Positions 4,675-64,000 of a stretch of 64,000 nucleotides of DNA are shown here, piece by piece (the first letter of the stretch is position 1; every line of letters starts with the position of its first letter). The notes under the pieces are model-generated. The model made no database searches. It worked only from the letters and a program-made list of their open reading frames with translations, and had not been told where the DNA came from. Location of the stretch: positions 558,001 through 622,000 of the forward strand of contig JAUPFP010000080.1 of assembly GCA_036925085.1 (NCBI GenBank). The letters run 5' to 3'. Source of the DNA: Brachycybe producta. Lineage: Eukaryota > Arthropoda > Diplopoda > Playtdesmida > Andrognathidae. Both the position numbers and the translations under genes were made by a program.

Positions 4675-4768
4675 CATCCACACCTCTTAGAACGATTCAA
4701 TTGGTGCTTGACAACTACGGAGCACTCGTGCAGTTGTGGCGCCTAAATTTCCCTAAAATTAGAACAAC

Positions 4769-6019
<1,251 letters not shown>

Positions 6020-10660: not shown

Positions 10661-11088
10661 AAAAATAACTAATATTCTAGAATTAACAAATTTTAATTTT
10701 GTCTAATCGAAAATCAGTAAAATTATTAATTATAAAAAATATATAAGTTATGGCGATGATGATGATGATGGCCTACTCTTGTCATGAGCAACTTTTTTCA
10801 TATTTTTTTAAAAAAAAAAACTTTTACGTTAACTAAAAACAATATTCTGGGGCGCCATTTACTAAAGAATGCAACAGGCCTTCAAGAATAAAAAATGTAT
10901 ATAATTATTATAATTTGTTTCGTAAAATGAAATATAAAGATTAACAACAACAACAACAACTAGCCTTTATCCTAATCAGCAAAATGAAGAGAGAAAAAAA
11001 AAACGAAATCTCGAGTAGTCATTTGAGTAACCTCAATTTTCAATTATTTCAAGAGAAAAATTAAGAAAATAAATCAAAAGATAAACAA

Positions 11089-11590
11089 TTTAAGATGGAT
11101 TTATATTATGAACAGCTGGTTTTATAACTCTGGTTATATTTTGCGTTTCATGAGCAACACTAAAAAGAAATTGAAAGTGTTAATAACTAGAACGGTTTTT
11201 GAGAATCACTTAATTACGGAGCCCCGTAAAGGACATGCGAGATTTTTGTTGAAATCTCGACATGTCGACTTTTAATTTCTTTTATTCGGCCATGTTAATT
11301 ATGCTATGTTGTGCGCACCATACTCTTAATAATTAAATTATTGCTGCTACAAGAGGGTGCGTGTCCTTTACAGGGCTCCGTACTCAATAGAAGCTTTATA
11401 TAGACAAAAAATTTTAAAAAATATTGTCTACTTAAAAAAGTTCAGTCATTTTCAAATTGACATAAAAAGCTTATTTTAAAATATATCAACATGAAAAATA
11501 CCCTGAGCTACCCCTTCTAGTTTCTTAAATACTATAAGGTAGAATAATCAGATTTCGAGGGGCGTTTACATTTTAAAACCCACCTTAAAC
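11089..11590. repeat. Family D element, copy 4, with nested element F
   Basis: Typical D halves surround an insertion at about 11214-11383. The insertion's ends TTACGGAGCCCCGTAAAGGACA and TGTCCTTTACAGGGCTCCGTA are inverted repeats. The ACAGGGCTC(C/T)GTA word recurs in family E and near 23230, suggesting related ends. Confidence 0.7.
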
Positions 11591-21430: not shown

Positions 21431-21637
21431 ACAAGCAGTTAGAAATCGGGGAGATCTTCAGTTGGCTCCGCCCTTGTTATGACGACCGGCAACTTCTAAT
21501 TGGTTTGTTGTATGGTTCGACGTTGAAAAAGGCGGAGCGTGTGACGGCAGACTACATAACCAACCAATTAGAAGTTGTGTTCGTCATAACAAGGGTGGAG
21601 CCAACTGAAGTTCTCCTCGATTTCTAACTATACCTGT
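21431..21637. repeat. MITE family A copy 5
   Basis: The ends ACAAGCAGTTAGAAATCGG and its complement, with the usual inner blocks, define the copy. AGTTTTGC lies on both sides as an 8-bp duplication. The central TGACGTCA is changed to TGACGGCA. Confidence 0.88.
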
Positions 21638-23447: not shown

Positions 23448-24015
23448 CTTTTTAAAGAGTTTATAAACAGCTGATTTCTAAACTCTTGATAATTCTGCGT
23501 TTCAGAAGAGAGCAACAGTAAAAAGAAATTGAAAGTGTGTTAAGAAACTAGAAGGGCAGCTGATTCATTAAATAGTATTTTTAACAGGCAGTTAGAAATC
23601 GGGGAGAACTTCAGTTGGCTCCGCCCTTGTTATGACGATCGGCAACTTCTAATTGGTTGATTATGTAGTCTGACGTCACGTGCTCCGCTCTTTTCAATGT
23701 CGAACCACAGAACAAACCAATTAGATGTTACCGGTCGTCATAAAAAGGGCGGAGATAACTGAAGTTCTCCCCGATTTCTAACTGCCTGTGTATTTTTATG
23801 TGGATATCTTTTAAAATGAACTTTTTATTAAAGGTTGAGTCATTTTCAAACTGACATAAAAAGTTTTATTTTAAAAGATATCAACAAGAAAATACATTTA
23901 ATTGATTGAGCTACCCTTCTAGTTTCTAAAACACATTTAAGTTTCTTTTAATATTGCTCCTGAAAAACAGAATAACCAGAGTTCGATGGATAATTTAGAC
24001 TTTAAAAAAACCCCT
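23448..24015. repeat. Family D copy containing MITE family A copy 6
   Basis: The D halves flank a complete family A element at 23584-23788 (ACAGGCAG...CTGCCTGT). The 9 bp GTATTTTTA occurs once on each side of A. In other D copies this stretch is present once and continuous, so the insertion site and duplication are directly visible. Confidence 0.92.
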
Positions 24016-24898: not shown

Positions 24899-25567
24899 GG
24901 GTCAGGATAAAAAGATGAACGAAAGAACGGGATGAACATTGGGGTAACTCTAAAACCCGACACAGAATGCATATAGAATAAGATGAACACTTTATCATGG
25001 ATGAACACACACTTTAAACTGATAACAGAGAAATAAAAGGATGAACATGGTTTTAGTTTAGGTTAGGTTAGGTAACTGAACCTAACCGAACCGAACCGAA
25101 CAAAACCTAAACTAATACCATGTTCATCCCCTCTAAAACCATGTTCATCCCCCCTTAAACCCATGTTCATCCCCCTTAAAACCATGTTCATCCCCCTTAA
25201 ACCCAGGTTCATCCCCCTTAAAACCATGTTCATCCCCCTTAAAATCATGTTCATCTCCCTTAAACCCAGGTTCATCCCCCTGAAACCATGTTCATCCCCC
25301 TTAAAATCATGTTCATCTCCCTTAAACCCATGTTCATCCCCCTTAAAACCATGTTCATCCCCCTTAAACCCATTTTCATCCCCCTTAAACCCATGTTCAT
25401 CCCTTTAAAGTATGTTCATCCTTTTATTTCTCTCTGTTCATCCCTTTAAAATGTGTGTTCATTAATTAAAATATAGTGTTCATCTAATTCTATATGCATT
25501 CTGTGTCGGGTTTTAGAGTTACGCCAATGTTCATCCCGTTCATTCGTTCATCTTTTTATCCTGACCC
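24899..25567. repeat. 669-bp foldback with internal minisatellite, 9-bp duplication (family K)
   Basis: The ends GGGTCAGGATAAAAAGATGA and TCATCTTTTTATCCTGACCC are inverted repeats, and arms of about 150 bp extend inward (AGAATGCATATAGAAT / ATTCTATATGCATTCT). CTAAGTTAG flanks both ends exactly (24890-24898, 25568-25576). The centre, 25120-25420, is a tandem array of about 21-bp units built on ATGTTCATCCCCCTTAAA. Long frames read from the array on both strands are repeats, not genes. Confidence 0.92.
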
Positions 25568-27091: not shown

Positions 27092-27298
27092 ACAGGCAGT
27101 TAGAAATCGGTCAGAACTTCAGTTGGCTCCGCCCTTTTTATGACGACCGGCAACTTCTAATTGGCTGGTTATGTAGTCTGACGTCACATGCTCCGAACCT
27201 TTTCAACGTCGAACCACACAACAAACCAATTAGAAGTTGCCGGTCGTCATAACAAGGGCGGAGCCAACTGAAGTTCTGACCGATTTCTAACTGCCTGT
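27092..27298. repeat. MITE family A copy 7
   Basis: This is close to the family consensus: ACAGGCAGTTAGAAATCGG to CCGATTTCTAACTGCCTGT, with inner GGCTCCGCCC blocks and a central TGACGTCA. TGTCAGCA lies on both sides as a likely duplication. Confidence 0.92.
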
Positions 27299-27687: not shown

Positions 27688-28019
27688 GTTCTGTTGTTGT
27701 TTTAATACTAACTGTCCACACTGCACAGACAAAGAGTTGACAAAATGTTGCGTAATACCACGAGACAAAACACCAAACCTTTTGATGTTTACCGACTTGC
27801 AAGCCGAAAACATAAAATAGTTTGTGAAATTGCCGACAAAAACAAAACACAAAAAGTCACAGAAATGTTTTAGAATTGTCGCCAATTTATCTTGAAACAC
27901 CTAGTTTCTGTTTTGTTTTTATTTTGTCAACGTGATGTGGATCGGGCATTTTTTGTTATTTCACGTATTTCATTATATTTTTATTTGATTTTGTTTCTAG
28001 AAAGAAAAAGAGATTTTTG

Positions 28020-29188
28020 ATGATGAATATGGATAAAAACGTTTCAAAGAACGACTGTGGAAAAACAAAGATGAACCGAGAAGAGATCGGTTGTGCTGCC
28101 GAGAAAATCATTTCCGAAATAAATGAAAAACGAAAAGTCACAGACAGTTTGATGATGGCTAAAATACGAGAAAAACTAAACAACCAGGTTGTTTAAAAAT
28201 GTCTTTAATTCTAAGGCCGGTTTCAAAAGGACCCATTTTTTGTTTTGTTTGTTTCGCGCCACATAAAAGCAGACTATCGATTACGTCATAAGGCGGGGAC
28301 GGACAATTGGGCATTTTCCAGATGGGCCGCTTATAGTTTGACAAACAAAATGTTAATAAGAAATATGTGAAATAAAAACTTTTTTTTTTTTACTGTTTTG
28401 GCAAATGTCGATAACAAAATGTTTTTGACACAAAAAAAAGTTGGTAGCATAGCGATGGCAGGAAACTGATCCAAGAGTAGAATGTTATTAACAGTGTTGA
28501 CAACTTGACAACAGAAATAACTTGCTAGTAAAATCCTTTGACTTCAGAGCGAGCGGTTGCAAAATTTCTGCTATTAACAAAGTTAGCAACATTATTATCG
28601 ACAAGTTAATGGAAAACCATAAATGCTGAAAGCAGATGTTATAGCAAAATGTTATTAACATTTCTAGAGACTTAAAAATGTTACTAGGCTCGATGGCTCG
28701 TAGCAAACCTTTATCGAAAAATGTTAATAACAAAAGTTAATAATATTTTATTTAATATTTGTTAAAAACATTGCTAATAACACGTGTTTTCAGCAGTTTC
28801 TCCGTATAATTCCACCTTTCATATGGTATCATAAGGGGTTAGAAGAACCCGTCATTATGCGTTTTGTGCAAACTTCTAGGTCGTTACTTACGAGTTGCGA
28901 TACTCTTTGAATGGTTCTGTTATTATTGGTGTCACAACTGTGTCCAAATTCTTACCAAGAGAAATTGTGTTTTTCTTCTAAAAAAAAAAAAAGGTGGAGC
29001 ACATAATGAAAGACATCGAAGATAAGTTGTACAAAACTTACGAGACGAACAGTGCCGAGACTCAACTTAAGGTTGATTCGCTTTGGGGAGTTCTACACAA
29101 CATCGAACAACTCGAGTGCGAGATAAGCGACTTCAAAATGGCTCTCGAGGGTTTTTGCAGAGATGTCGTTCAGCCATCGAACATTTAA
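28020..29188 (+). CDS. SYCE2-like synaptonemal complex central element protein
   Basis: There are two coding exons, 28020-28187 and 28994-29188, joined in phase 0. The product is about 120 residues, almost all predicted helix/coiled coil. The pattern matches vertebrate SYCE2: an A..II..IN..R....LM...R..L block, then a K.LE..IY..Y-like block (seen as DIEDKLYKTYE), then a helix ending C.D(V/L). SYCE2 builds fibres with TEX12 in the central element that holds homologous chromosomes together in meiosis. Identification is from remembered family pattern, not a search. The donor (CAG|GTTGTT) is weak but the acceptor and the resumed frame are clear. An AG acceptor at 27999-28000 keeps the frame open upstream, so an earlier exon may add N-terminal residues. 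Confidence 0.65.
28188..28993 (+). other. Intron of the SYCE2-like gene
   Basis: The 806-bp intron contains imperfect inverted phrases: GTCGATAACAAAATG near 28407 against AATGTTAATAAC near 28720, with several ATGTTATTAAC words between. This suggests a degraded MITE. The acceptor follows a poly(A) stretch rather than a pyrimidine tract. Confidence 0.5.
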
Positions 29189-30874: not shown

Positions 30875-33800
30875 CAGCTTTTTCATAAATCATAATCATC
30901 AAAAAACCAACCTGAGTGTTGTTTTTGAGACTGTAAGGAATCGTATCGCCGTTATTGTGCGATACGGGTTTGCGTTCGTACTTTCGACGATGTTTATCGT
31001 CCACTTCCGTTACGTAAAAAGTGCCAGGAAATAAATTATCTATGTCGCCTTGTGGAACATGAGGAGCTAAAGAAAAAAGAAGTAGAACTCCAATAATAAG
31101 TAGAATTTCTGTATGAAAAAAAATGTATATCATTCAGCTTCAAAGCGCTTTGGCTTGAATAATAGCTTTGCATGTATGAGGTACTTTTTAAAATTAAAAA
31201 AAAAAATAATAATCCAAATATTAAACTCATTTCTGAGTGTAAACGCAGGCAATTTTTATTATGATGTATTTAAAAATAAACTGTTCTATCGGATTTTTGA
31301 AAAGCTGTCACTATACATTATATCCATGATTTTTTGAGGTTTTGTTTGGATGCTACATACATAGAATAAGCTTCTCGAATTGTTTTAGAAACTGATGACA
31401 ACTATTTTATTCCAATATGTTACCTTTAGAGTGAGCCGATTCTCTTAGTTTCATAGCAGCCTCCAGTTCAGTTGGTGGTACTTTTTTCCTCGAATCTAAC
31501 CTTAGCTTGACAGCAATCAAGTTATTAGACAGTTTATCTAAAGCAGATCCTGGAGTATAGTCGTCCGAGATTTTTATAGAATACATAGATGATGCCAATC
31601 CAGATCCGTACGAAAAAAGGCCAACCCTTTTGCCAGCTAAATCTTTTGAGGATTTACTAGAAAATTTAAAAAAAAAATATAAAAATTCTGACATTGATGG
31701 AGAGCATTTAACGTAAAAGCTTACCTAACAAGAAATGATATGAGGCAGCCATAAACAGATGGTGTGTACATGTTTCCGACCATCGTGGAAAGAAGAAGTG
31801 ATGGCTTAGTCTTTTGTTCAAATGTTTTTTTACTGTAATCCAGAAATGTTTTCTCGACATCCCTGTCGAAATACGTATCTTCTAATTTCAAATCCCTTTT
31901 GGAGAAAATTTTACAATAAATTACATTTTGCACGAAAATATGACAAAAACCTATGAAAAATTAAAAATTAAGGTGGGTCAAAAAATAAAATCTCCAAGAA
32001 ATTAAAAAATTTATAAAATTCACATAAAAACGTTTTTCAATGCAAATTTCAAAGTTTATTAGAAACTCTTAATAGTCGGTAATGCTAAAAGTATTTTTCA
32101 TTGAGCTGTATGAATAAAAAAAGAGCAATTGCTGCTGAGCATGAGCAAATGCTAAACATTATCATTGCTCCTATGCAAACGGTTGCAGCATGAGTATTTC
32201 CTCATGCTTATACCTTTTGCTTATAATGAAGGAGTAAATGCTCTGATCGTTTCTCATCAAAGAAAGATACAAGATATTAATGTCACATGTACTTTGTACA
32301 GTCCTACTGAACATTCTCATAAAATACTGTATGCTCGTTTTCACTCAGTACTGTTACAAATAAAACACCCAAAAAAAAAAGATCTTTTCACCACCAATCC
32401 CTATTAGAGCCAAATCCTGGCCATACTCAACCTATGTGACCATTGGGCTCAGTCGAAAGTATTACCTTTTGTTCTGTGCTCATGCTCTGGAGCAAATGCT
32501 CATTCATTATTCATATGGCCCTTTATAATAAAAATACTATTAGAATCATTATGTATTGGTTTTGTTTTTAATGTTACTTCTAGAGAGAAAAAAATGATTT
32601 AGGGTCACATTCAAAAAGAAAGCTTGGCACCTGAACTTTTAAGTTGCACCCTTTGAGCAAGGTCCTAACAAAGATAAACCCTATTCAAGAACTAATATTT
32701 TTGAAAATATTTTCCATAGGGTAATTCAAGTGTCAAGTTTCCTTCTTGAATTTGTGATTTTCATAAACTTTCTATGCTCTAAAACCATGTTAAATGTACT
32801 TAACCATCATACCTAAAAGCTTCAAGGCCGGAATGTTTGCCAGAAAAATCCGGGTTTGGATCAAGAAGAAAATCATTAAAAGCTAAACGAGCAAACGACT
32901 TCTGTACAAGTTTACAAAATGGAGAATGGAAAACAAAAGCATCCAAAGTGTCCAACGTAAAACGGCTTTTGGATCCATCTGAAAATTTGAAGAAAAAATA
33001 ATAATTTCCATTTAATTCCATATATTAAAAAACTCCCTCCTCTCCCCCCCCTTTTTTCTAAAATAAATTTCTTTAAAAATTGATCACACGTTGCACTCTT
33101 TGTGCCCAACTTTTGAAATAATGAACAATAACAAATCATTGTTCATTCAAAACAGTTAAAGATTTAGATGATCAAATGGAGACACTTTAGGTTCCAAAGG
33201 ACATCAAATGCAATAATATGAATAGAATTATACTTTGTAAAAATTGTTTCATTTAAAATGAATAGTAGACTGTACACCAAACATTTCTCTAAAATATATA
33301 AATAAAGCATTCACGAAATGGAAATCGGATATCTAAGTTTAACTAAACCACCGAAAATTCAATGTGAGGTTTATAAGACACTTCTGACATTTTAAGTTTC
33401 TCGTTCCGGAGTCTACCAAAACATTATACATAACGATTCTTTTTAATGAAAAAAAAAATCATAATTGAATTGGCTAAATTAAATTATTTTAGGGGATTAA
33501 TTTATACAAAGCAGTCTATTATAATTGGGATAATCTACTTATTCAATCTGTAGAAATTGTCTAAATTACTGTATATACAGCATGACCCATAACCAACATC
33601 TAAATTAATTTCCAAAGTTTAAAAGTGGCGCAGCTAAATCGTTTAAAGAATATGACTTATAATTTATGAAAATAAATTATGCGCAAAGCCAGTGCTAAAC
33701 TCATGAACTTTTGATATTAAGTTTCATGCAAAAGTTGGTGAGTTTAGCACTTGCTTTGACCTTAAAACTACAGTTAATTTTTAGAACATATCAAAATGTC

Positions 33801-36800
33801 ATCATCATTTCCTGTACCTTATCCCGCAAGCAGCAGGGCAGCAGCATTACATATCAAAATGTAAATGAACAAAAGTAAATTCATAAAAGTTATTCATTTT
33901 TAAAAGCCAAGGTTTAAATTGCAAATTTTAAAGAATTAAATACTATATTAAAGGAATAGACTTCTTTTTAAAGAAACAATCAGCTTTTAAAAAATTATCT
34001 TCCATTTTATAAAAATACTTTTTAATATGTTGTTAATAACTACCTAAAGTTTCGAATGTGCAGTTTTTATTGCATTTAAATTAATCAATTTAAACCAATG
34101 TATATGCATATTTAACTGCTTTTTGAGTTAAAAGGTACCACTGCCACAGGCCCACTAAGTTGCCCTCTCGACACGGTGTCATAACCTATTCACCACAGTG
34201 GTTCTGAGACATACTGTATATACATGTATTTTTTGTAGAAAAATACGTATCCTACGTAAGCCCCCTCCGTTCCATCTATAAAGATTAGTTACAAATTAAT
34301 TACTAATTGAGGGTTGTATTACTTATCAAAAGTGATTTTCATAAGAAATTCAAAGTTTGTTTCGTAAAGGAATGCCATAAAAGTAGTTTCATAACTTTCA
34401 AAATAAATAGTTAATGGCAAATTCAAAAAGAACAAATTTCACAATTTTATCACTGAAGAGAGGAAAAAATTTAAAACTAATCAGTAAGCTAAGCAGGGCC
34501 ATGACTATAGTGGGTTTACTGGTCCTACAGATCACAAACTTCGTTCAAGTGGGCCCAAACGACAACATAAAATCATAACGTATAAAAATTTTCATAAAAA
34601 AATTATAAAAGTGCTTTTACAACTAATTTTAAAAAAAATTGTAATATATGAACATATTGTCATATTTAAAATTAATTTTCTAAACCATTTTTGTATGACA
34701 TCATTTTTAAATGTTACATATTTCAATCAGAAATTTGTTAATCGTTTGTGAGGTTATGTCAGTGATTCCTAAAGGGTGTGCCACGACACACTATAGTGTG
34801 CGATGAGTTATGCAAAAAGTACCTGCAAAATTTTGGATGTCACACACTCATTGTGTTTGTATAATTTAATATTTTAAATAAAATTTTCATTTTATTAGCA
34901 AAACCAATATAAAAAAAAACGTCATAAACCGGGGTAACTGAGGCATGTGCAGTGTGCAGTGAGATTTGCTAGGCATACCACCATTCCTTCAGGAATGAAA
35001 TACTGTGAAATGAGCAAAAAAAAAAGTTTGGGAACCACAGTGTTGCACATGTTTAATTATGAAGACAGTCAAAAAAGGAGACGAACTGGCTCTACAAAAT
35101 ATTTTGGACCAGAGCTTTGCATACTCTTATTACGCCCCTGAAGCCACGACTCATACCGTATTTAAACTTTTGATAAAACTTTTTTTTAAAAAAACTGCTA
35201 TTTGGTGCCCATATTCTTAAAAACGACTAAGCTTAACCTTTGTTTTGTCTTGCGGAGAATGTTTGTTAAAACTTTGAATTTTTTAAAAAAAAAATCACTT
35301 CTGATGCGTAAGAAAAATTCTAGCCTTAAATTTAAAGTAATAGTTTATTAATAGACCTACTAAATATACGGCTCGTAAATAACTGCTAATAAAAAAACTT
35401 GATTACACGTAAAATGGACAACTTGAAAATTAAATAAAAGTACGAGGTCATACAAATGAGGGGGGTTAGAAATAAACAATATTAAAAAATCAATTGAAAT
35501 TATTAATATTAATTAAATAGAATCCCAGTGGCAATACCTATAAAGCGTTGCATAATAACTTTTTAAAATATGTCATTAAATGGCAAATAAAATAAAATAT
35601 GTCGTAAAAACGAATCTAACAGAGAAATCAGATATTTGGCCTACAGCTAGTCTTGGTGGGGCTAATTGAGCGCAAATTGAAAATGTGCCAAATTAAACAA
35701 AGGCCAATTCGAACATATGCCAAACTGTACGAGCGTCAATTTCAACAAATGCTAAACTGACTAACCAATCAAAACGTCATATTAAAATTCGCTACATGCA
35801 ACTACCAAATGCGGAGTTGTTATATAAGTGTGCAATAAAGCAAAAGGCTGTACGTTGGAAGCTAAAATGAAACAATTGACGTTTTCAAACATACTCGACT
35901 CCTCAATCTAGAAATTTGAATAAGCGCGCCATTGATTAAATGCCAAATTAAGACACCTACGAAAAATAATCGAATAAAGGTTTGGCGTTTGTTTTGGCGC
36001 TCAATCAGTGCCCTAACAGCCTTGCTCGCTAAGAGAATAGTTCAGTTCGACGTGAAGCGCCAATATGCAAAATGCCTGCAACAAGGTGAAAGGGGTTTAC
36101 ACAGCTAGATTCTCTTTTCCACAGAAACCACATTGATATTCTTATTATTTGTTGTGGGTTGACTTTTATATGCCAGTTATTAAATAATAAATTACTTTTA
36201 AGTTGTAAATTATATATTGCTTTAAAAAAAATAATGGCATCCTTGAAACTGTTGTAATAAAAGTGACATAACTTCACCGAGGGACATCGAATATACATAA
36301 TAACAACTAGAAAAAAAAACCTTGCATTGTAATTGCCTTCACCATGATGTCACCACGTGCTTACCGCGTTCGAGGGCCTCCTGTGCCTTCCTCTGATACG
36401 TCTGATAACATTTGTCCAAAGCCCACAAGTAACACTTGATGGACAACTTCCCGTCAACCGCCGGATACTCCGAAGTGAGATCTGGTTTGTAAAAGTCGTA
36501 AACATGGCTCATGTGGGTCGCTCGAAGTCCTTTATTGAGAAATGAAGAAAAAAAGAGAAAATACGATTAAAATAAAACAATTTTAATGTTAGCATTCAAA
36601 CATGAAAATTTATACCTCTTTCAATGACTAAAGGTGCGTTTGGACCGACTAGCATTGCAACCGAACCAGCGCCGCCGGTACATCGTGCATTACCACTCGC
36701 ATACACGGCAATATCACCCGCTACAACCAAAGCATAACGACCTGCAAAAAAAAAACATTTATTATTGCAAATTTTATTAAAATATATTAGAAATTACATC

Positions 36801-38333
36801 AAAATTTTAAGTCCTTGAAAAAAAAAAAAAAAACTTCTTTCAAAATAATAACAAAAAACGTAAAATGGCAAAAGTCAACCTTGCATAACTATATGCAACG
36901 TCATTAACGAGAGCAAAGAAAAACCAACAACAAGATTGCAAATAAAGTATTAGCCTACGGCCCTTATTATTTTTATCATGTTGTCGTTTTGTTTACGACA
37001 ACTCAAAAATATAAACATATAAACTGTGTTTTCGCATTTCTAGCAGCATTTAAAAACGCAATTAATAACTAGTTTAGTGCAATGAATTGATTAAAAAATT
37101 AAGAAAAAAAAAGAAGAAAAATCGAACTAAATTACACTGATAGCTTCAAAAGACCTCAAAAGAGCAAAGTTTGATCTAATTTTAATTTCGAACTAAATAC
37201 TAGGCTTAGGTTTTTTTTAAAAAAAATAATTTCATTAAAGATCGAAAATATCTGTTCGTATCAAACTTTCGAAAATATCTGTTCGTATCAAACTTTCTCT
37301 ACAGGTCCCCACAGTTGCAAACCATGTTATAAAAACATCCTTGAACTAAATTATGAGATTACGAAAGTGTTTTCTTTTTCTAATTTTGCTAATTTTATTA
37401 AGTATTCGAAACAACAAAAGTTTCATAAAATTGAAAATATACAAAATGAAATTCTAAAAAATACACAAATAAAATGCTGATTCTTTAATATTCTAAGAAA
37501 TGCTAATAAAATTAAAAAAAAATTATTTTGAGGTTCTTCAGTTTCATTAATTATAAGTTTCAATTTATAAACTTAAATTGTTGCTCGATGATAATTCTGA
37601 ACATTTGCCAAAAGAACTTTGATTTTGTACAACTTAAATGACCATCAGTTAATGACATTATGTCTTATCGTATATGACAGAACCATTACTCATCATTGCT
37701 CACTACTAAATTGAGAATATCAATTATATGTTCATGCGATACGTAACCAAATAAAAGAACTAAAAAAGAAGGGGCTCTTTAACATCAAGTTTATGCAAAT
37801 ATGTCTTACCAAATACCTTAAAACACCTGAAATAAAAAACATTTTGAAATGATTAGTAGGATTGAAAATAAAGTAAAAAGACAATTACCATCCCAGGCAC
37901 TAGATTCGACCCAGGCCAAAGCGTTGAAAAGTGCTGCCGTGCCACCGTAACAGGCATTCTTTGAATCGACACCTTCAACCTCAGTGTTGCCACTTTCTTC
38001 AAACAACTGCATCAGAACAGTCTTGACACTCTTCGACTTATCCAGAATGGTTTCAGTGCCAACTTCCAAGTAACCAATATTGTTATAGTCGACGTCGTAA
38101 CGTTCCATTAGCCGTTGAACGACAGTAAGACATAGAGAATTGATGTCCTCTCGGTCAGTACAGAAACCCATTCTTGTCTGTCCCAGACCGATGGTGTACT
38201 TTCCAGCACCGACACCATCATGGCTTTCCAGTTCACTCTGTTCGATGAAGAGAGAAGGGAAGTAAATCTCCATGGCCACAATACCGACATCCTGAGGCCA
38301 ACAGCCACAGTGGCTTTTCTGACAACTTGGCAT
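30801..38333 (-). CDS. HMGCS1: Hydroxymethylglutaryl-CoA synthase, cytosolic type
   Basis: It condenses acetyl-CoA and acetoacetyl-CoA to HMG-CoA, the entry to the mevalonate pathway. Seven coding exons (high to low): 38333-37889, 36741-36616, 36529-36365, 32978-32813, 31895-31725, 31656-31424, 31066-30801. All have GT..AG borders and keep phase, giving 523 residues, about the usual length. Visible active-site elements: Glu in LEVGTETI, nucleophilic Cys in [12 protein letters not shown], His in [15 protein letters not shown]. Also family-typical are [30 protein letters not shown] and [12 protein letters not shown]. The start [20 protein letters not shown] lacks a mitochondrial leader, so the cytosolic form is favoured. 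An acceptor lies just before the ATG, so a 5' untranslated exon exists upstream. The last ~20 codons come from a family D repeat; splicing from the preceding CAG|GTTGGT could give another end. Confidence 0.97.
32100..32526. repeat. MITE in HMG-CoA synthase intron (family N)
   Basis: The ends TTGAGCTGTATGAATAA and TTATTCATATGGCCCTTT are inverted repeats. They are followed inward by GAGCA...GAGCATGAGCA and its mirrored form. It lies in the intron between the exons ending at 32813 and starting at 31895. The short open frame inside is not coding. Confidence 0.7.
34766..35047. repeat. hAT-like remnant in HMG-CoA synthase intron
   Basis: CAGTGATTCCTAAAGGGTGT at the left pairs imperfectly with AAAGTTTGGGAACCACAGTG at the right. 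These are ends of the CAGTGGTTCCCAAAC type. I do not see a clear duplication. Confidence 0.5.
35655..36013. repeat. MITE in HMG-CoA synthase intron (family O)
   Basis: GGGGCTAATTGAGCGC on the left and GGCGCTCAATCAGTGCCCT on the right are imperfect inverted repeats. The body has repeated TGCCAAA(C/T)T words. Confidence 0.65.
37243..37296. repeat. Exact 27-bp tandem duplication
   Basis: CGAAAATATCTGTTCG...ACTTT occurs twice head to tail in the intron between coding exons 1 and 2 of HMG-CoA synthase. Confidence 0.95.
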
Positions 38334-39962
38334 TATCTACAACAAAATAAAACAAAAAACAAAAACCACACAAAATGTTAAATAATTGCAAAAAATGCAA
38401 ACATAACGAAAATTAATTTGTTAAAGAAATTACTCTAAGTTGCACAATCAAATTTTCTTGAGAAGTAAATGATATTAATATAAAGAGAAACGTGTGTAGT
38501 AAGTACAAAATGCAACTTCGAAACTGACTTAACTTTGAAATGCTGTTTCTCACCTAAGTATTAGCAATAACAAACAAGAGACACCTCAGTTATTAGTTAC
38601 TGAAACTTGGTTAAGTGTCTAAAACTGTATTTTCTCGTAACTATTTTTGAAGTGGCAGTACAATATATATTTGTTATTGTCTATGATAAGAGCATCTAAA
38701 ACAGCGAGAACAAATGGTAGGTTTTTCTCGACAATTTTTCAGCTGGTGTGTGTGTTTTCAAGGTGCAGCTGTGGCAAAATAAGTGTTTGGGCACTTGTCT
38801 AAACACAACAGGCCACATTTTTATTGGATATTCAAGTGACGTCAAGAAATTGTTCAAACTGTTGGCTCATCCTATTGTCATTAAACCTCATTACATCACA
38901 CAGAATAAATAAATATAAAAGTCCACACACACAGAGAGAGAGAAAGAGAGAAAAATGAATTTGTAATAAAACAATAATCAAGATAAAATTATTTCAAACT
39001 TGTTAGAAAGTTACCAATAAAAGAAAGAACAATTTAGACAATTTTTAGAAATATTACTAAATTATGAAGTCCCTTATTTTTTTGGAGGGATCTTTTCAGT
39101 AAAATAATGTACTTCTTACATTGTGGGGACCCTTATTAATGTAATCAACAAAACTTGACAACTAATCAACTTGATTGACAATGCTTCCGTTAAAATTAAT
39201 GATAGTTAGTTAAGTAGGTGACCACTGTTGGTATCAAAGGTTACTTGAGGTCGCAATATTAAGAAGGAATGGTCAAGTGACGAATAATCAAAAACAAATT
39301 TTGCAGTTTACAAAAATAGCATGGCAACAAAAACAACTTAACTAAAAAGTTAAAAACACACAATAATCTAATACAATTTTTCAGAATTCATAATGAAACA
39401 GCACACATTCTAGACTACTACACACATATTTATACATTCATGTTGTATGCTCAAAATATAAGGGGGGTCATTCAACTAAACTTAATAAATTACCAATTAA
39501 TAATTAGAACTATTTTCAGTCAATGACCTTCAATCCTTGTTTTCTTAATGAAGAAAATAAAGACAAACAAATTCTTATTTCATTAAAATAAATTCAAATT
39601 CAAAAGAATATAATATAAAATTCATATTATACAAAAAAAAGTGGGGGGAAAAAATATGAAATAAAATTAAAACCTGAAGTGCTCCCAAAAAAAAGTAGCA
39701 AAAATTTTACATAACAAACACTTCACACTCGTTAGTAACCAAAATTCCAACAACTGAATAAACTTCAAAAGATATTTTAAAGGCAACAGAATAAATATAT
39801 AAATGGGCAATGACCTAAAAGGTTGTGACGTAATAAACAATTCAAGCAACTCATTTTATTATTTCTAAAAAAAAAGACTCCTCGTTTTTCACCTGAAGAT
39901 GCTACAATGCTTTTCTTATAATATAGAAGTGCGAGAGTAGCAAATATTTATTCCACGGTTTT
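38334..39962. other. Upstream of HMG-CoA synthase start, probably 5' intron
   Basis: The minus-strand TTTTGTTGTAG just before the ATG is a good splice acceptor, so this is likely intron. It contains a (GA)n-like tract near 38934-38952 and AT-rich DNA. No further exon is recognised. Confidence 0.5.
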
Positions 39963-52404: not shown

Positions 52405-55400
52405 ATGCGCTTTGTAAGCGTTGCGTTAGTAACTACATTTATTGTGGGAACCATAGCAGGTAAGGAGCATAAAAAAACAAAAAAAAAGGCTTTGGCCCTA
52501 TGTTGCTTGTTACGAAGTCGCCAATGCTTGAAAAAACTTGGATAACTGGATTACAACTATTTGGGATGGATGTCACTAATTAATATTCAATGGATTGTGC
52601 ACATTTTACAAAAAAAAAAGTCCTTTTGTATTTAAAAGTAGCCCTAGTATATTTTATTTGGACTTAATTTGTATCAGGGTAATATTTAGGTTTTTAGCAG
52701 TTTTAGAAGCAACTTTCGAAGCTTCTTTTGAAACTAGAATAGTAAAAAAAAATCGCAAGAATTTTATGTTTATGATGAATATCCTTTAAAGTGAACTTTT
52801 TAAAGAAAAAGTTTGAAAAAGACAAATATTTATTTGATCAACTTCAAAAAAGTGAAAAAAATTGTCTTTTTTAAAGATATCAATCATTAAAACATCATTA
52901 TTGCATTAATTTTAAGGTTTGAATTTCTTTCAAAAGTTGTTTTCAATAGATGTAGATTTTCATCAAAAATGTGCTTAAATCATTTTTACTTGCCTCTCAA
53001 TTATAATTATTATTCTATAGTTAAAAATCATTTGTAACGAATTGGAAATTTATTTTTCTAAGTGTTTAATGTCTCGAGACAGAATGGCGACTTCCTCAAA
53101 ATACAAAAATATCAGTTTCCTAATATTCATATTTTATGAGTAGCTGATTTTCAATATCTGGTTATCCCGCATTTCAGGAGTAACAAATAATGAGAAATTG
53201 AAACAGTCTGTTAGGAACTATAGAACGGTAGCTGAATCACTTAATAGTATTTCCACGTTGATATATTTCAAAATAAACTTTTTAAAGAAAAGAAATGTAC
53301 AAAAATATCATTTGCTTATTTTAAAAGATATCAACATGAAAATACCCTTAAGTGATTGAGCTACCTTTCTAGTTTCTAAAACACTTTCGAAGCACCTCAA
53401 ATTTGCTCGTAAAAGACAGAATAATGAAGAGTTCAAGAAGCGTTTACACTTTAAAACAACCTTCATTGTACCATTTGTTTTATTAGGACCATGGCAACCA
53501 CGATCAGACACACAATGTGCAACTGTATGCACAGGTAAGAAAATCAATTCTTTAATTCATAGAAATTAGAAATTGCTTTGAACTTGTTTCATTAAACTCA
53601 TTTCGTTGAACTTTTAATTAGACAACACGAAGTTCAACTACGATATAGGAAAAACATATGTTTATGATTACGATGCCGACACGGCAAACAGTCTTCAAGA
53701 CGGCAAAGAAGCCTCTCGACTTAGGATACAAGCCAAAGTCGAAATTCAACCCGTTTCCAAATGTGATTTTGCAATGAGAGTAAGTTAATTGGAGCTTTTG
53801 TGGTCATTTTAGCGAAACAAACCAATTGTAATCAAATAATCATATTTGAAATTCACAGCTTTTGGATGTTTCCTTGCGAAACTCCGAGTCGTCGAGGATC
53901 ATTGGAAGCGATGAGTTCACAGTGGCTCTGGAACGTTATCCATTACGTTTTGGCTATCAGGATGGTCGAATCGAAGACTTGTGCCCGGATCTTAACGAGC
54001 CGACCTGGGTCCTCAACATCAAAAGAGGAATCCTTTCCACATTCCAAAACACAATGGAAAACTTGGAAAAAGACCACAGTCACGAAGAGGTAAAATAAAT
54101 GGTTAATTAATTAAATAACTGAAAAGAATGTTAATTAAATAATAACTTGTTTTAATGACAGACGGACATTACTGGAAAATGTAAAACCAACTACAAAGTC
54201 TTAGAAGGTGGCCTTTTCTCGCAAGCGACTATTCAAAAGACAAAAGACCTAACGGACTGTTCAGACCGAAGTGACGTCTACACTGCCATTCAAAGTAGCC
54301 CATTGCAGGAACAATCGGTAAGAAACCAAATTCCAGAAATACAGTTTAATGACCTTTATCACAAAAAAACCACAATAATTATAATTATTTTATGAAATTA
54401 TTAAAATAACACTGATTTCGCTCAACACAAAGTGGAAATGACCAGAATATTAATTTCATGTTAAAAGAATATTTTGTTACAAAAAAAATTTCGTGTTATC
54501 CATTTTTGAGTTTAAACGGTTTATATTAAATTTGTATTCTTATACAAAACTATTAATTTAGTACAATTTTTAGCAAAAAAAAAACACAATTATATGAAAT
54601 TATTAAAATTACAATAAAAACTATTTAACACGAAATGGAGGGACCACATTATTTTTTAGTGTTTAACGAATTTCATGCTAAAATATTTTTTTTGCTATTC
54701 TAAGGAACCGGACCTAAAATTATACTTCTTACTACGCAATTTTGCATTTGATCCGTTTTTGTGTTAAACGGTTTTTTACTATATATTTAAAAATACAAGA
54801 GAAACCATTTAATATATGAAATTGAAGAAAATGGAATATTTTTTCGTGTCAAACGAATTTCTTGTTAAATATAAATTTTTTTTCTTTTTGATATTCTCAG
54901 AGACCGGACCAAAAATCGTTATCGTAATCCGTTTTCGAGTTAAATGGGTTTTATTGTATTACAATTACTAGACAAAATTATCACTTTAATAAATTTATTT
55001 TTTATCACAAAAACTAAAAATATTAAAATCACATTCGAAACCGTTTAACACGAAATGGAAGAGACCAAAATATTTATTTCGTGAAAAACGAATTTCTTTT
55101 TACGCAATTTTTAAAAATTAGTAACAACAATTATTTCTCCATATGTTTATACAAAGGCTTTTGGACCATCGACGCCAGTAATCAAGAGCAGCCACGAATG
55201 TCAGCACCAAGTACAAAACGGAAAACTCCACAAATCTCAGTGTACGGAAGAACACGCATTCCAACCGTTCTCGAGACAGAGCAGTGGAGCCATAACGAAG
55301 AATACTCAGACTCTGACATACGTATTGGAGAAACCGACAACCTTTGCCAATAACGGTTCGTAATATCTCGAGAAAGTGTACAAACAAACAATAACTAATA

Positions 55401-58400
55401 ATTTGTTTAGATTACATTCCAACGCACAAGTCCCTCTTGTACGACCACACCGATCGAAGACAAAAAATCGATCAGAGCGAAGTTGAGGAATCTCTCAAAG
55501 AACTGTGCACTGTTGCCGAAAATGACATCAGGCCTCAAGTTCCACGTCTCTTCTCGAAATTTGTTCAAAAACTACAACAACTGGACTACAATCAATTGTA
55601 TAACATCTACAAGAACATTGATCCAATCTGTGGCAGTTCTTCGAAAGCGAGGTATATAAACAAAACAAAAATAAAAATGTGCACAATAGTTTGCACAAAT
55701 GTTTTATTGTTTTTCTATTTCTGTAGGAAATTCCTTTTGGATGCAATTCCTCTGACAGGAAGTGAAGCAGGGATCACTCTGATGAAAGACATGATCTTAC
55801 AGAGGAATGTTTTAGACACGGAAGCTGATGCTTGGTTCCTTATGTTGGGCTTCACGCCAAAACCAACCAAAACCATGATTGAAAATCTAATGGTAATTTT
55901 TTTTAAATTCCAAATCAATCAAGTTCTATATTTTGAATTCCAATGTCCAAAAGTACATGACCTTCTTAATTATTATCATCATCATTTGTTCATGTGATGA
56001 ACCCATTGCTTAAGATCGATTTGAGAGATATTGTCCATTGCAATAACAACATTTTTTTTTTACTGAATCCTTAGAGGCTGACAAAAAATAAGATTGAAAC
56101 AACACCATTTGAAACTGAAATATCTTATTACTTATACATTGAAATATACGTTATGTGTACATAAAAGAGGGCACAATGTGTCATTCAATAAGTTCAGAGG
56201 TTGATGGAGATTGAATTTCCAAAAAGAAAACCTCTTTTTTTTTCGGAAATAGATCAAAAGATCATATATATTTTAGAACATCACAAAAACTTTCCCCGCA
56301 ATCAATTTGAGTGTTGAAAAAAAAGTAGTTTAAGGTGGTTTTAAAGTGTAAACGCCCCACGATGAACTCTGGTTAATATTCTATCAGAAACAATATGAAT
56401 TGAAACCTTAATGGTATTTTTATGTTAAAAGCTTTGGTTTAAAAAAAAAATAAGCTTTAATATGAGCTTGAAAATGACCCAACTTCAAGCTGACGATATT
56501 TTACAAATTTTGACTAGAAAAAAAAGTTTATTTTGAAAGATACCAAACATTAAATATTATTAAGTAATGCAGCTACTCTTCTAGTATCTAGCACATTTTA
56601 AATTTCTTTTTAAGGTGGGTTTACGGAACTCCGATTATTTTGCCTTTAAAGTGCAAAAGAGAGAAACTAGAAGATTAACTGAATCACTTAAACTGGATTT
56701 CAAATAAAAATACCCCTCAAACTTGAGTTATTCTGTCTTTCAGACACTTTTGAAAGTGTTTTACAAACTAGAAAGATAGCTCAATCACTTGAGGATGTCA
56801 ATTTTGATATATTTTAAAATAAATTTAAGTTTCAGAAATAACCCAACTTTAAGCAGAAGACGATTTTTAAATTTTGTCTATAAAAAGTTTATTTTGAAAG
56901 AATATCAACATGAAAATAGTATTAAGCAATTCAGCTACCATTCTAGTTTCTAACACAATTTCAATTTCTCATTAGCGTTGCCAATAAAACGCAAAAATAA
57001 CCAGAGTTCAGTGGATCACTATTATGCCAATATTTGAAATGATAATCATTTTCTTAAAAATCAAATTACTGTATTTGTCTAGCCTCTGTTGGAGGTATCT
57101 TCGAAACATCCGAAAGCCCTTCTCGGTATTTCGGCTTTGATCCACACCTACTGCAAAGACAACAGTGAATGTGGTCAAGAGCAAGAAGTAAAGAATTTTC
57201 TCAAAGTCCTCGGTTCTAAACTTGGTACCAGTTGCTACACAAACAACAACGAAGAAAAAGAAGTGGTACAACTAAACAATTTTGACATTTCCCAACAATT
57301 AGTACGATAAACATTGACAAGCTCATCGTAAAATATTTTCCGTTAGGTGATTCTCTCACTGAAAGCTCTTGGAAATGTTGGCTCCATTGGAGATATTGTT
57401 TCAGTTGTCAAACAATGCTATAGTTCGGTGGACAATTCCATGGATGTCCGATTGGCAGCCATTGATGCCTTCCGTCGTCTTCCTTGCAGTTACAACGTAC
57501 GAATTTCGACTTATCGAACCGCTGTTTCCAAATCAGTAGTAACGAATAATTCAAGAAATAAATTTTGATTTCATTTGTAGAGAGACGAACTTCTTCAAAA
57601 GTTTTTTGATGTCGAAGAAGACTCCGAAATACGAATTGGATCTTATTTAGCTGCCATGAAGTGCCCCACTACAGACATGCTTGACAAAGTTCGTGAAAGT
57701 TTAGATCAAGAACAAATTAATCAAGGTGAGGAGAAAAGTCAATTAAGTCAGTAAATTAATTTAGAAAACAAAAAACACAAAAACAATTGATTTTCTAAAT
57801 AATCACATAGTTGGATCATTCGTATGGACACATCTGACAAATCATCAGGAAAGTTCTCATCCATACAAACACAACATTCTAAAGATCTTATCTAGTAAGA
57901 AACTTCAGAAAAAATTCTCGACCGATGTTCGCAAGTTCTCCAGATATTACGAAGGCAGCCTCTATGTGGATGCTCTTCGTACCGGAATGCATTTGGACGG
58001 ATCGGTCGTTTTCTCGTCCAAATCTTACCTGCCACGTTCTTCCTCTTTGGGACTCACTTTGGAGTTGTTCGGAGAAACCGTCGATCTCTTCGAAGTATGT
58101 CATCCATTCAAGTTTATAATTTTTGATTTATATATTGTATAATAAGCTGTTTTTTTTCTCTCTCTTTCCGAATAGGTCGGAGGACGAGTGGAAGGATTCG
58201 AATTTCTAGTGGAGTCCTTTTTCGGACCGAGAGGTTACTTTCCCGACGACACCATTCAGAAGATCCTCGAATCATCGCGAGAACAAGAATCTTACAGTCA
58301 AAGCAAATTAAATGAAATTGCCAAAATAGTGAGTCTTTATTTTTAATACAGGTTAAGAGCCTAGAGACACTCCAGCGTGCATGTGCTGCATGACGTTTCC

Positions 58401-61400
58401 AATATTCCATTGGGTTTTTACTTTACACCCTTTTGGATTATGCTTAATTACTCTACGCATGTTAACAACTTTTCTGTTCTTCAGGAACATATTTTCGTTT
58501 TAAGAAAAGTTGTGCGTATTCTTTAATACGTTTTTCCAGTTCTAACACATTTTCGTAACGTTTCGAATTGCCGTTTGGTTGCTAGAACCACAACTTTGGA
58601 ACCACAAAATTGGCCACGTCTTATGGCATTTGTAACTCTGGAGTGTCATGGTTCTTAAGAAGAAGAAGAAGAAAAAAATCCCATTTCCCCACAAAATACA
58701 TATTCTCTCTTTTATAGTTTAATCTTAAGAATACGTATGGTGAAGATCCACGAGGTTCGTTCTACATGCGAGTTTTTGGAAATGATCTACACTACACACA
58801 ATTCCAAGGAATCGAGCAGCTGATTGAGTCATCTCAACGTTTCAGCCTTGTCGACGCTCTATTGAAATTGACTCGTAGCGAAGAATCGGAATACACAAAG
58901 AGCTTCATGTTCATGGACAGCAGCATCATCATTCCGACGTCAGTCGGTCTTCCTCTGAATCTAACCGTAAACGGAACTGTCGTCGCAAACCTTCGTATCG
59001 GAGGAAAAGTCGATTTGAGTCGATTGGCATCAAAAAGCCTGGATGTCAAAACCCACATTGAACCAAGGTAATGATCAGCTGATTTTCAAACTCTGGTTAT
59101 TCTGCGTTTCGGAAGAGCATTACTAAAGAGAAATTGAAAATGTGTTAGAAACTAGAACGGGTAGCTGTAACATCATGTTGATATCTTTCAAAATAAACTT
59201 TTGTTGTAGGCAAAAATTAAAAAATATCGACAGCTTAAGGTTGGGTCATTTTAAAAGATATCAACATGAAATTACGGTTAAGTGATTGAGCTACCCTTCT
59301 AGTTTTTAAAACACATTCAAGTTTTTTTGCTCCTGAAAAACAGAACAAAAAAGTTCGAGGGGCGTTTACACTTAAAAACACCTTAACTGACAAGGAATTT
59401 TATATGATTGTAGTGCGGCTGTCGAGATTTCTGGAAGTATGATTACCGATGCATTTGTGACACGTTCTGGACTAAAGATATCTGCTACTCTACACACTTC
59501 AACTTATTCCGATGTCGCAATCTCAGTCGAGAATGGACAGGTTGTTAAGGCTCAGATCAACATGCCGAAAGAGCAGATGGAAATTTTTGATATCCAGTAA
59601 GGAAGTCGAAACAAAGAGTTACAAAATAGAAAAAATATCTAATCATTTGTTGTTTTTTTTGTTGATAAAATAGATCTAAAGTTATTTCCATAAATGGATG
59701 CGAAGAGACGGATCATAAGCCTCTTACCGATAATCAAGTACAAATGGAAACATGTACTGGTAACGGTATTTCAAAATATCTGGGACTTCAACTGTGCAGC
59801 CACCTACAATATCCAGTGATGTCCGAAACATCGGAAGAAAACCCATCGTGGTTGTTGGCAGGTCCATTTTCGGCTAACATTTATCTCCACAAAACAGACA
59901 AAGGTCTTCAGTCTTATAACTTCGAATACAGATGGGACAAACAGACAGTAAGCAATCGACATTTTACAAAATTATCCTGAATTAAATTTCAAATACTGTG
60001 GAAACCGTTTAAACACGAAATGGAAGGGACCGAAATATTTTTTCCTGTTATAAAAAACCGGACCAAGAATATATTTCGTCTTATCCAATTTCTCGTGTTA
60101 AAATGGTTTCACTGTAATGTAATGTAAAAAATTAAAGAGTATTTCACCTCTTTCCTCGTGTAGGTCACTGCAGAGTCTGGTAAGACTCTTGCCACAAGAA
60201 CCGGTCGTCTATCTTTAGACACACCAGGTTCAACAGTGGATCGCGAGTTGACTGCGGAAATTGTCTACGATGAATCACAAAAATCCTTAGCCATTCGTCT
60301 CGCTTCTCCAATCAAGAAGATGACAATGAATGGTTAGAAATTTCTTTTCGTTTACATCTTGAATAAACCGTATTAATTTGTATGTTTGCTTTTTTTTTAA
60401 AAAAAAATAGGAAAAATTGTGAACGAGAATGGTCTGAAGCAATTGGACGTAAAATGGATTGTTGACGAAATGGAACGTTTTGCACTTGAAACGGAATTAG
60501 CAGTGGACACAACTAAAGAAAACTATCGGCTTTCTCCGAGCTTAAATGTCAGATACTATGGAAAACCCATAATGACACTGAAGGGATATTTGTCCAAGAT
60601 TGCCGGAAAGCAGTACGGTACCGAAATCACTTTGGAACATCTCACTCCACAACCCATCACAATTTCTGGTAAGTGCCATATTATTAATATTCTTCAAAAT
60701 TATTATTTTGCAGTTGAAATCGACCACCAAAAGTGGTCTGTGTGTTTCTAGCCATAAGTATGACTAAAAGTGATGACAGCTAATGTTATTTCTTTCAGGG
60801 GTTCTAAGCAGCAACCTTGGCAACGATGGAAGTATTCGATACGACACCGACTTCACGGTAGATGCAGGAGTTTTAAAGACCTATGCAAAAGGCTATATCC
60901 AGGCAGGCAATTCCAACATAGCAATTAAAGGAACTGCAGACTATCGTCTCAACAGTGGACCAAAACATTCCATGGCGTTTGCTGCCAAGCTCCGACAAGG
61001 AATTGTTGGAAACAACAAGATCCTAAGCGGAAACGTCGACTTCCAGTGTTTGCTTCATCCGGAATACAACTTTGCAGTAAACGTTGATTCGCAGCGTTCG
61101 AGTGGACATTTGGAAACAACGTTGGCCGTGGTTTATGGAGATAACAGAAATACAGATTTCAACAAACTGAGCTTCCAACACAAATACAACAAACAAGGAT
61201 CGTTCCCGGAACATCGCATCGTCTCGATCACCAAAGTGTCGTTTCCACCTGCAGACATCGATGCCTCAGCCGAACTGAGAAGCGAATTGAACGAGAAACA
61301 TCTAGAAACTGTTCTTGCGTTACATTACGATAAGAACAAACAGATGACATTAACTGTTGTTGGCAACAAAGGAGAAGAAGGACAACAAGAGCTCGTCCAA

Positions 61401-64000
61401 GGTTTCGTTAAAATATCTTTACCAGAACGAAACATGAAGTTGAGTGGAGACGTTCGACGGAACGAAGAAAACGAATATTCGGCCACCGTTGCTGGAAACT
61501 GGATGGATGGAGAAGATGCCAAAATTGTTTTCTCGTTGAAAAACAAAACTCCAGGTCAATTTAATCAAGAAGTGAGTACCACAATCTCTCTTCCCGGCCA
61601 AGAACCTCTTACATTGACGGCCGATGTCCTCCTGAATGACGTTCATAACAGAATACGAGGAGAAGCAACAATGAACGGACAAAATTACAAAACCTACGTC
61701 GAATGTCTGAAACCAACTCTGGAAAACTTCCGCATTTCTGCCGGTGCCGTACTACCAACTGAAACCTATTCCGCAGCTGCCGAACTCAGCACGATTGAAA
61801 ACGAGAAATCTCTTAAGACAGACTTGTTGCTCGGTGATTTACAACACCTGACTTCTGAATTCAGAGTTAAGCGTGATGGCGACCACCTTCAAGCATCTGC
61901 AGAGTTGAACACCGAAGTAGACAGTTCCAAGAAGAAGCAATACAGATTACATTTCGCTCACAGACAACCTATGCTGGGATCCGAAGGACAGATTCAACTC
62001 GAGTGTCCTGATCAGAAGATGGGAGTCAGTTGGAAAGTCAATCGAGATGCTCCACGTCGTAACAAACCTATTGCATTTAAAGGTACTTACGAATTGTGGT
62101 GGAACGACTCTGAGAAGCTTACGTTAGATGTGGATACATCAGTGATAATCTCAGGAACATCGCGAGATATCAGTGCCAAATTTCTTCTCCACACTCCATT
62201 CTATGGTCTCGAACAAATTGGTTTCCAATGCAATCATAACGATGATAGACACATATGGAAGAACAGTGCCATCGTGTCACTTTACGGCGAATCCCTTTCG
62301 GCCATCTACACTGAAGGCAAAGTTGCAATCAGCGATGAATCCAAGAGATTGCGAGCCACCGTCAAAGTTGAGACTCCTCTTCCTCTGTTACCCACTTTGA
62401 ACTTCAATGTGGACCTGAAACAAACTGGTGAACAATTCGACAGTGATGTTCAATTCAAATGGTCGCAGAATGAACAGATGGAGTTCAGCGTACACGGAAA
62501 CTTCGACGGTACGAATCTAAACGGTGGTGTTAACATCAGCACACCTTTTCCGTACATGAAGGACTTAAGTCTTTCGGGAGACATTCTCCGTCAAGACAAA
62601 ACAACCGGTCAAATGAGATTCTCCTGGAACGATCAAGTCATCACCATTGACGTCGAAGGAAACGGACACGTTACTGATCAAAAGATAGACGCTTACACCA
62701 AGATTCATCTTACGACTCCGATTCATCAGTGGAATGACGTTTTGTCGTCATTGCGATTTAGCTACGATCAATCGAGTCTTTTGGCTTCCGTCGAATTATC
62801 TTTCAACAAAGCCGAAAGAATCGCCGTGGAAATCAATGTTGCTCATCAACGACCAACATCGACAGTCCGAAGCGATGTTCTATCTCTACACTTCGTAAGC
62901 CCTTTCAAATCGTTTGAAGACATGTTGTTAACTTTGTCAAGAGAAACCGGTCTAAATCGTGTTCGTAACCACGTGGAATTGAAATACGATCCTCAGAACG
63001 AGTATTCGGCTGGATTCGAATTGAATATTCCAAGTTCCAACAACGTCCACGTCAAAGTCGAAGCTAAAGAATCGTACGGAGTCTTTGACAACCTTCTCGT
63101 AGAAGGACACTACTTGTTAGATCGAGATGAACTGAAATATAAGGCAAATGCATTACTGAAAGACAAATCCTTCGATCTCGAAGCCAACATGAAAAAAATC
63201 GGTTCCGATAAATATGAAACCTACACGGGATTATTAAGAATCGACATCCCCGTGTTGTCCGTTCACAATGCTGAAGTCAAGTTCGAGCATAAGATCGAAG
63301 ATGCAGTACGTAACACTCAAGTGCAAGCAACCTTGGATAGAAAGCCATTGACTCTTGAACACAACATTAATTACAAGGATGCCCTTAACTTCGAAAATAG
63401 CCTTCAACTGAGAACACCCTATTTGGACATCACGGTTACAAATAAACAACAATCTACACGTGGTAACTTCAATCACAACTCTGAGTTGAACATCAACAAG
63501 GGCGATATTTACTCCGTGTTAGCAAAATATCAAGTTGGACATGGTAACGAAAACCAAGCAGTTTTCAATTATGCTTCACCCAGATGGCAATTGAACATTG
63601 CGGCCATCCACGATTTCTCATCGGAAACATCGAAACTCACTCTGGAATATTCTCCAAATAACAAATACGAATTGACATCGAGATTCGCACACAATTCTAA
63701 CAACGGTGATATGCAACTAACTCTCACCACTCCAATCGATGGACTTCAGGAAATAACGGTTGTCGGTAATTACGAGCAGAGCGCACAAGAGAAATCTGCC
63801 AAGTTCGCAATGAAGTTAACCGAAAGCATCTACGCTAAAGTTCAATTCACACAAAAACTGAATGGAAGAAACTCAAATACGGAACTTATCGTAAATACAC
63901 CCATTGCAAGATACGAAACAAGTTCTGCGAACGTTGAATTTAATCTAAACGATGAACCGAAATCGGCTGCCGTTAATGTCAACTTTGGTGAAAAGGCTTA
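52405..64000 (+). CDS. Large lipid transfer protein, apolipophorin/apoB type (partial, 3' end beyond window)
   Basis: A secreted scaffold that packages lipid into lipoprotein particles. Exons: 52405-52459, 53487-53534, 53622-53779, 53859-54089, 54162-54317, 55157-55355, 55411-55651, 55727-55892, 57083-57265, 57347-57496, 57581-57725, 57811-58094, 58176-58328, 58718-59067, 59414-59596, 59674-59947, 60164-60332, 60411-60668, 60799 onward. Every junction keeps phase. About 2,200 codons are present. MRFVSVALVTTFIVGTIAG is a clear signal peptide. Residues ~30-620 form the vitellogenin-type lipid-transfer module: YDIGKTYVYDYDADT, a CQ....NG.L..SQC.EEH.FQPFS block and VGSFVWTHLTNHQ. Then follow FEFLVESFFGPRGYFPDD and a CTGNGISKYLGLQLCS block, as in apolipophorin and apoB. 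No polyserine region or canonical R-X-K/R-R furin site was noticed. Vitellogenin is less likely but needs the C-terminus to exclude. Confidence 0.95.
52460..53486 (+). other. Intron 1 of the lipoprotein gene, with family D copies
   Basis: A clear D copy lies at about 53130-53470 (GTAGCTGAATCACTTAATAG... / ...GATTGAGCTACCTTTCTAGTT). A degenerate one lies at 52725-52905. The D copy ends only about 15 bases before the exon 2 acceptor. Confidence 0.7.
54425..55105. repeat. Tandem family S repeats in intron 5
   Basis: At least three degenerate units contain an AACACGAAATGGA(G)GGACC phrase, a TTTCGTG(T/A) phrase and TCCGTTTT(C/G)GAGTTAAA. They fill most of the intron between the exons ending at 54317 and starting at 55157. 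Related single copies lie at 59994-60116 and around 29969-30567. Confidence 0.6.
56325..57020. repeat. Two or three joined family D units in intron 8
   Basis: D outer ends (GTGTAAACGCCCCACGATG, ACTCTGGTTA) and inner arms recur: CTACTCTTCTAGTATCTAG near 56573, TTACAAACTAGAAAGATAGC near 56761, CTACCATTCTAGTTTCTAAC near 56934. It ends about 60 bases before the next exon. Confidence 0.7.
58357..58654. repeat. TTAA-flanked MITE in a lipoprotein intron
   Basis: GAGCCTAGAGACACTCCAG and CTGGAGTGTCATGGTTC are inverted ends with a small gap. TTAA lies immediately outside both (58353-58356 and 58655-58658). It occupies most of the intron 58329-58717. Confidence 0.75.
59076..59390. repeat. Family D copy filling an intron
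   Basis: D runs from CAGCTGATTTTCAAACTCTGG to GTTCGAGGGGCGTTTACACTT inside the 346-bp intron 59068-59413, leaving under 35 bases of other sequence at each side. Both arms are well preserved. Confidence 0.85.
59994..60116. repeat. Family S element in a lipoprotein intron
   Basis: TGTGGAAACCGTTTAAACAC on the left and AAATGGTTTCACTGTA on the right are inverted ends of CAGTGGAAACCG type. It lies in the 216-bp intron 59948-60163. Confidence 0.6.

Follow-up and report, generated by a model that had tools for sequence, protein, structure and literature searches.

The window, by which we mean the whole 64,000-nucleotide stretch of DNA analyzed here, carries on its forward strand a locus (28020..29188) that we judge, with a probability of roughly 80%, to be a real gene of two or more exons encoding an arthropod orthologue of the meiotic synaptonemal complex protein SYCE2 that comprises essentially just the conserved helical core. 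These odds rest mainly on a search of PDB sequences with the joined translation, on shuffling controls, on a scan of the whole window and on a reverse PDB search with the human protein. Exon 1 (28020..28187, + strand; 56 codons) has an open frame, encodes the first part of the helical core and ends at a CAG|GT donor. It is followed by a phase 0 GT-AG intron of 806 bases (28188..28993, + strand) and by exon 2 (28994..29188, + strand; 64 codons plus stop), which encodes the rest of the core and ends with it. The junction reads CAG|GTTGTT ... AAAAAG|GTGGAG and the joined exons give a 120-residue frame without internal stop or frameshift. Both open stretches, their GT-AG boundaries and the joined frame of 120 codons with its stop were found at the coordinates given in the original prediction.

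Beyond its initial GT, the GTTGTT donor is weak, and the acceptor AG terminates a stretch of 13 A residues. Conserved exons of the phenoloxidase gene of this genome have GTCAGT, GTGAGT and GTAACA among their donors (three were read by eye); deviations from the usual donor thus do occur in this genome, none of the three being as weak as GTTGTT. Among four splice choices compared against SYCE2, the predicted junction gave the best score (92), and the three alternative junctions were rejected for their lower scores (76, 81 and 82); we infer from the sequence that 28187 is joined to 28994. On the 5′ side, the reading frame of exon 1 is open through an acceptor-like string, TTTGTTTCTAG (27990..28000, + strand), which was read from the sequence and ends at 28000, leaving 19 bases between it and the first ATG; the gene may therefore have an additional upstream exon.

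When the joined translation was searched against 177,635 distinct PDB sequences, the top match was human SYCE2 (E 4.9e-4, 23.8 bits), covering query residues 26–114 and residues 20–107 of the SYCE2 chain. The other seven PDB entries listed scored 15.6 bits or less, the runner-up being S100A13 (15.6 bits); S100A13, IglC and DUF948 were rejected as relatives of the joined protein, their matches being weaker than that to SYCE2. In the reverse search of the PDB with the human SYCE2 core, the best unrelated match reached only 15.0 bits, and the pattern alone, as it occurs in solved coiled coils, therefore falls short. Homology to the conserved helical core of SYCE2 (human residues ~57–165) was found with the joined protein only, SYCE2 being matched in the PDB neither by exon 1 alone nor by exon 2 alone. 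A Pfam search with the joined protein gave nothing over cut-off (five weak, unrelated families), and the SYCE2 claim thus rests on one known relative. In a genome-wide search with the SYCE2-like protein itself, only its own two exons were recovered at E 0.001, with no second close copy.

The alignment with human SYCE2 spans 88 columns with 21 identities (24%), 44 positives and a single gap, and runs through the proposed junction without a break. Hydrophobic residues are retained at 26 of the 31 positions that are hydrophobic in the human protein, against 12.5 expected, with a hypergeometric p of 5e-10 that is inflated because the alignment was optimized. Compared with the human chain (PDB 6r17, 6yqf), the helical core is equal in length to one residue, the hydrophobic spacing is similar, and the alignment is gap-free from the LMM region through the end of the core. 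The differences from human SYCE2 are a one-residue insertion before LM, the two exons seen being without the long N- and C-terminal extensions, and a TEX12 partner that was not found in the genome (see below). The original prediction that the joined protein is SYCE2-like stands, SYCE2 being the top match in the PDB sequence search and the controls favoring homology over generic helix resemblance. The more precise claim that its residue spacing follows vertebrate SYCE2 survives in part: hydrophobic positions are similarly spaced, but the extra residue that separates the IN..R motif from LM puts LM out of strict register with the human LM, and a human Tyr stands opposite the Cys in the C.D motif.

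The shuffling controls bear on the reading that this is a real small gene for an unrelated helical or coiled-coil protein, in which the likeness to SYCE2 would come from a shared heptad pattern and composition. Three schemes were run with 5000 shuffles each, and none of the 15,000 shuffled sequences reached the score of 92, with best shuffle scores of 65, 77 and 82 and Gumbel p values of 1e-6, 4e-4 and 0.0017, respectively. The harshest scheme (best 82, p 0.0017) preserves the pattern of hydrophobic, acidic, basic and polar residues, and the fairly close approach of its best score to 92 counts in favor of an unrelated coiled coil, as does an identity to SYCE2 of only 24%. The same holds for an exon-wise search of the whole genome with the human SYCE2 core, in which the locus was not reciprocally recovered and two chance-like matches (E 3.7 and 5.4) were obtained; this search ignores introns, and the SYCE2-like exons are each short and diverged. 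However, no other PDB sequence comes near the joined protein (15.6 and 15.0 bits against 23.8) and the alignment continues over the junction through 88 columns with one gap, so that an unrelated coiled-coil protein appears quite unlikely.

To meet the objection that the exons had been chosen by eye, all 1534 stop-free fragments of at least 25 codons on both strands of the window were scanned against the SYCE2 core with splice signals not required, and same-strand fragments within 3 kb of each other were also scored as pairs. The exon-2 fragment (28982–29185) ranked 1/1534 with a score of 62 that includes four intron codons; exon 2 proper, scoring 53, would still lead the single fragments (next 50). 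The exon-1 fragment (27936–28193) ranked 6/1534 with a score of 43 (exon 1 proper, 39). Together they formed the top pair, scoring 98 against null tops of 69–76 (reversed window and six block shuffles); a complement-not-reversed null mirrors the reversed one and the two are not independent. Exon 2 paired with unrelated upstream fragments already scored 80–86, exon 1 adding 12 over the best such pair, and the pair excess comes mostly from exon 2. The scan result is not a formal p-value, because the original prediction could have picked among many protein families.

Codon usage was assessed with a model trained on 1348 codons of the neighboring lipid-transfer and HMG-CoA synthase exons, the best equal-length stretches being compared across fragments outside these training genes. 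The best 64-codon stretch of the exon-2 fragment ranked 2/100 and the best 56-codon stretch of the exon-1 fragment 7/164 (the six better fragments including that of exon 2), and exon 2 therefore has strong coding support and exon 1 moderate support. The AATAAA sites near exon 2 (18 against 13.2 expected, with as many in 20/200 shuffles) are not significantly above chance and were left out of the evidence. The alternative that there is no gene at all, only two stretches open by chance or a degenerate copy linked by a GT-AG pair that looks plausible but is not used, would accommodate the weak donor, the A-run acceptor and the AT-rich window with its 1534 stop-free fragments, but is highly improbable given the coding-like codon usage of both exons, the high ranks of both fragments against one and the same protein, with order and strand correct, and the intact joined frame.

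If the locus is an SYCE2 gene, its product would, by homology, assemble into SYCE2-type helical structures at the midline of the synaptonemal complex and assist in extending the synapsis of homologous chromosomes. In the human protein, the core (57–165) binds TEX12, SYCE2 tetramerizes and filaments of the complex resemble the central element (PMC3411106). The SYCE2-like protein would then be an orthologue that is expressed in the germline, located in the central element and partnered by a TEX12-like protein.

Other synaptonemal complex proteins were searched for exon-wise in the genome. No TEX12 (PF15219) candidate was obtained at E 10 with a short and insensitive model, and in weak tests no genome match was obtained for SYCP1 at E 0.01 or for SYCE1 and SYCE3 at E 1. 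The blanks for SYCP1, SYCE1 and SYCE3 are no proof of absence, because these models matched nothing in any control genome. The sole match of the SYCP3 model (contig C66, E 0.579) was rejected as an artefact of a tandem repeat of HSENLATVQNV-type units. The meiotic recombination gene MND1 gave an exon match at C54:206096-206254 (E 1.5e-25, with one TAG within the matched frame), and the search is therefore able to find a conserved meiotic gene in this genome; MND1 is not known from fly or worm. It is conceivable, if rather doubtful, that the lineage kept SYCE2 while replacing its partners SYCP1, TEX12 and SYCP3, and that SYCE2 now works with unrelated transverse filaments. If true, such an arrangement would be an intermediate between vertebrate-type and fly-type synaptonemal complexes.

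The genome can be assigned with high confidence to an arthropod and with moderate confidence to a myriapod, probably millipede-like. The assembly (295.3 Mb, 442 contigs) includes a mitochondrial contig of 15,359 bases (81% AT), on which 22 tRNAs were annotated by ARAGORN and COX1 by Pfam, the remaining proteins being named by eye; 3 of 25 ARAGORN rows (second Asn 1781, second Thr 6576, Lys|Asn 12728) were dropped for overlap with other genes. The rRNAs presumably lie where short sequence motifs place them. The gene order reads cox1 cox2 K D atp8 (inferred) atp6 cox3 G nad3 A R N S1 E nad6 cob S2 -L1 nad2, continues with rrnS V rrnL L2 -T nad4L nad4 H nad5 F and ends with -Q, then -Y -P -nad1 I M -C W. 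The cox1-to-E block is of the arthropod type. In most Pancrustacea, trnL2 lies between cox1 and cox2, a place from which it is absent in Protura (PMC3176236); unlike in most Pancrustacea, the contig is without trnL2 there. The placement of nad6 and cob, directly after trnE in a polydesmid table, has been described as a mark of helminthomorph millipedes (PMC5240118), and the two genes are placed likewise on this contig.

The phenoloxidase/hemocyanin family is represented by one locus with three exon matches on contig C245. The exons are phenoloxidase-like, and in the PDB the joined central piece matched Limulus hemocyanin with 131 bits against 122 for phenoloxidases. The odorant-receptor family 7tm_6 gave eight matches (best 32 bits), all over the Pfam cut-off, one tested frame matching 7tm_6 only; these matches leave room for a hexapod. 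No strongly scoring match to the odorant co-receptor was present among the 7tm_6 matches in the genome. The arthropod origin, a guess in the original prediction, is supported by the mitochondrial gene block and the phenoloxidase/hemocyanin-family gene of the same assembly.

Two further observations concern mitochondrial sequences. The non-coding regions at ~4700-5130 and 10740-11150 read as inverted copies of each other, and the inverted block between them holds both rRNAs, nad4L, nad4 and nad5, so that this block could flip. Extra COX1 matches off the mitochondrial contig (C1:12697416-12698753, C17:4027703-4029047, C17:3332011 and C17:4001073) are apparently nuclear copies, one of them nearly full length with one TAA.

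In the literature, conservation across Metazoa has been described for SYCE2 and TEX12 (Fraune et al., as quoted in PMC4132317). Ecdysozoan synaptonemal complexes are called substantially different, and whether those of fly and worm were replaced or diverged beyond recognition is debated (PMC4857336). Drosophila C(3)G, Corona and Corolla and C. elegans SYP-1 to SYP-5 show little or no recognizable homology to the vertebrate set (PMC4857336, PMC8598163); the window protein would likewise be an ecdysozoan synaptonemal complex protein if the SYCE2 reading holds. SYCP1 has been regarded as lost from Ecdysozoa, searches that took in Strigamia and spiders having failed to find it (PMC5803294), whereas a small number of arthropods still have homologues of TERB1, TERB2 and MAJIN (PMC7227075). 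For Daphnia pulex, a potential SYCE2 homologue that is transcribed and forms a very long branch has been reported (PMC5023733, citing Fraune et al.). Likened by description only, the Daphnia and window genes are both SYCE2-like genes in arthropods; Daphnia is a crustacean with a very long branch, whereas the lineage studied here has a millipede-like mitochondrial order. Among the literature matches listed, drawn from non-subscription papers, there was no report of SYCE2 in myriapods.

The original prediction of an unexpected retention is thus correct only in part: it agrees with the judged loss of SYCP1 in Ecdysozoa, but a Daphnia pulex candidate had already been published, and with that candidate in print the window gene would be a further arthropod member, not the first. 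Judged from its sequence, it is probably a functional SYCE2-family gene of a non-model arthropod, with a useful phylogenetic reach that was partly anticipated by Daphnia. If true, a recognizable SYCE2 in an arthropod resembling neither an ordinary insect nor a crustacean would, with the Daphnia report, suggest that the arthropod ancestor had SYCE2 and allow its loss within arthropods to be dated. Through pull-down or staining, the gene would also open a way into the synaptonemal complex of animals of this kind.

Two other genes were recognized in the window. HMG-CoA synthase is a separate gene on the reverse strand (31410..38336, − strand), of which an N-terminal exon (PF01154, E 2.6e-75 at 37821-38336) and a C-terminal exon (PF08540, E 2.6e-21 at 31410-31724) were found. 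A large lipid-transfer (vitellogenin/apolipophorin-like) gene (55395..63998, + strand) apparently continues past the window end, with matches to PF01347 (E 3.3e-8 at 55395-55994) and PF09172 (E 3e-24 at 58718-59068); the long frame 60777-63998, with no Pfam match over cut-off, is assigned to it by inference. Upstream of this gene, three fragments with coding-like codon usage lie at 53618-54392, that at 53850-54095 being the highest outside the named genes. They are possibly its first exons; Pfam gave no match for 53767-54090. At 177-339 and 25113-25421, 21-base tandem repeats resemble coding sequence because at least one of their reading frames stays open. A palindromic MITE-like element, ~155 bases long and with TTCAGTTGGCTCCGCCCT arms, is present as five paired copies (1048-1201, 4496-4648, 21457-21609, 23610-23763 and 27118-27272) and as single arms at 20754 and 26469, the window containing 12 arm matches with at most three mismatches against 0.03 expected.
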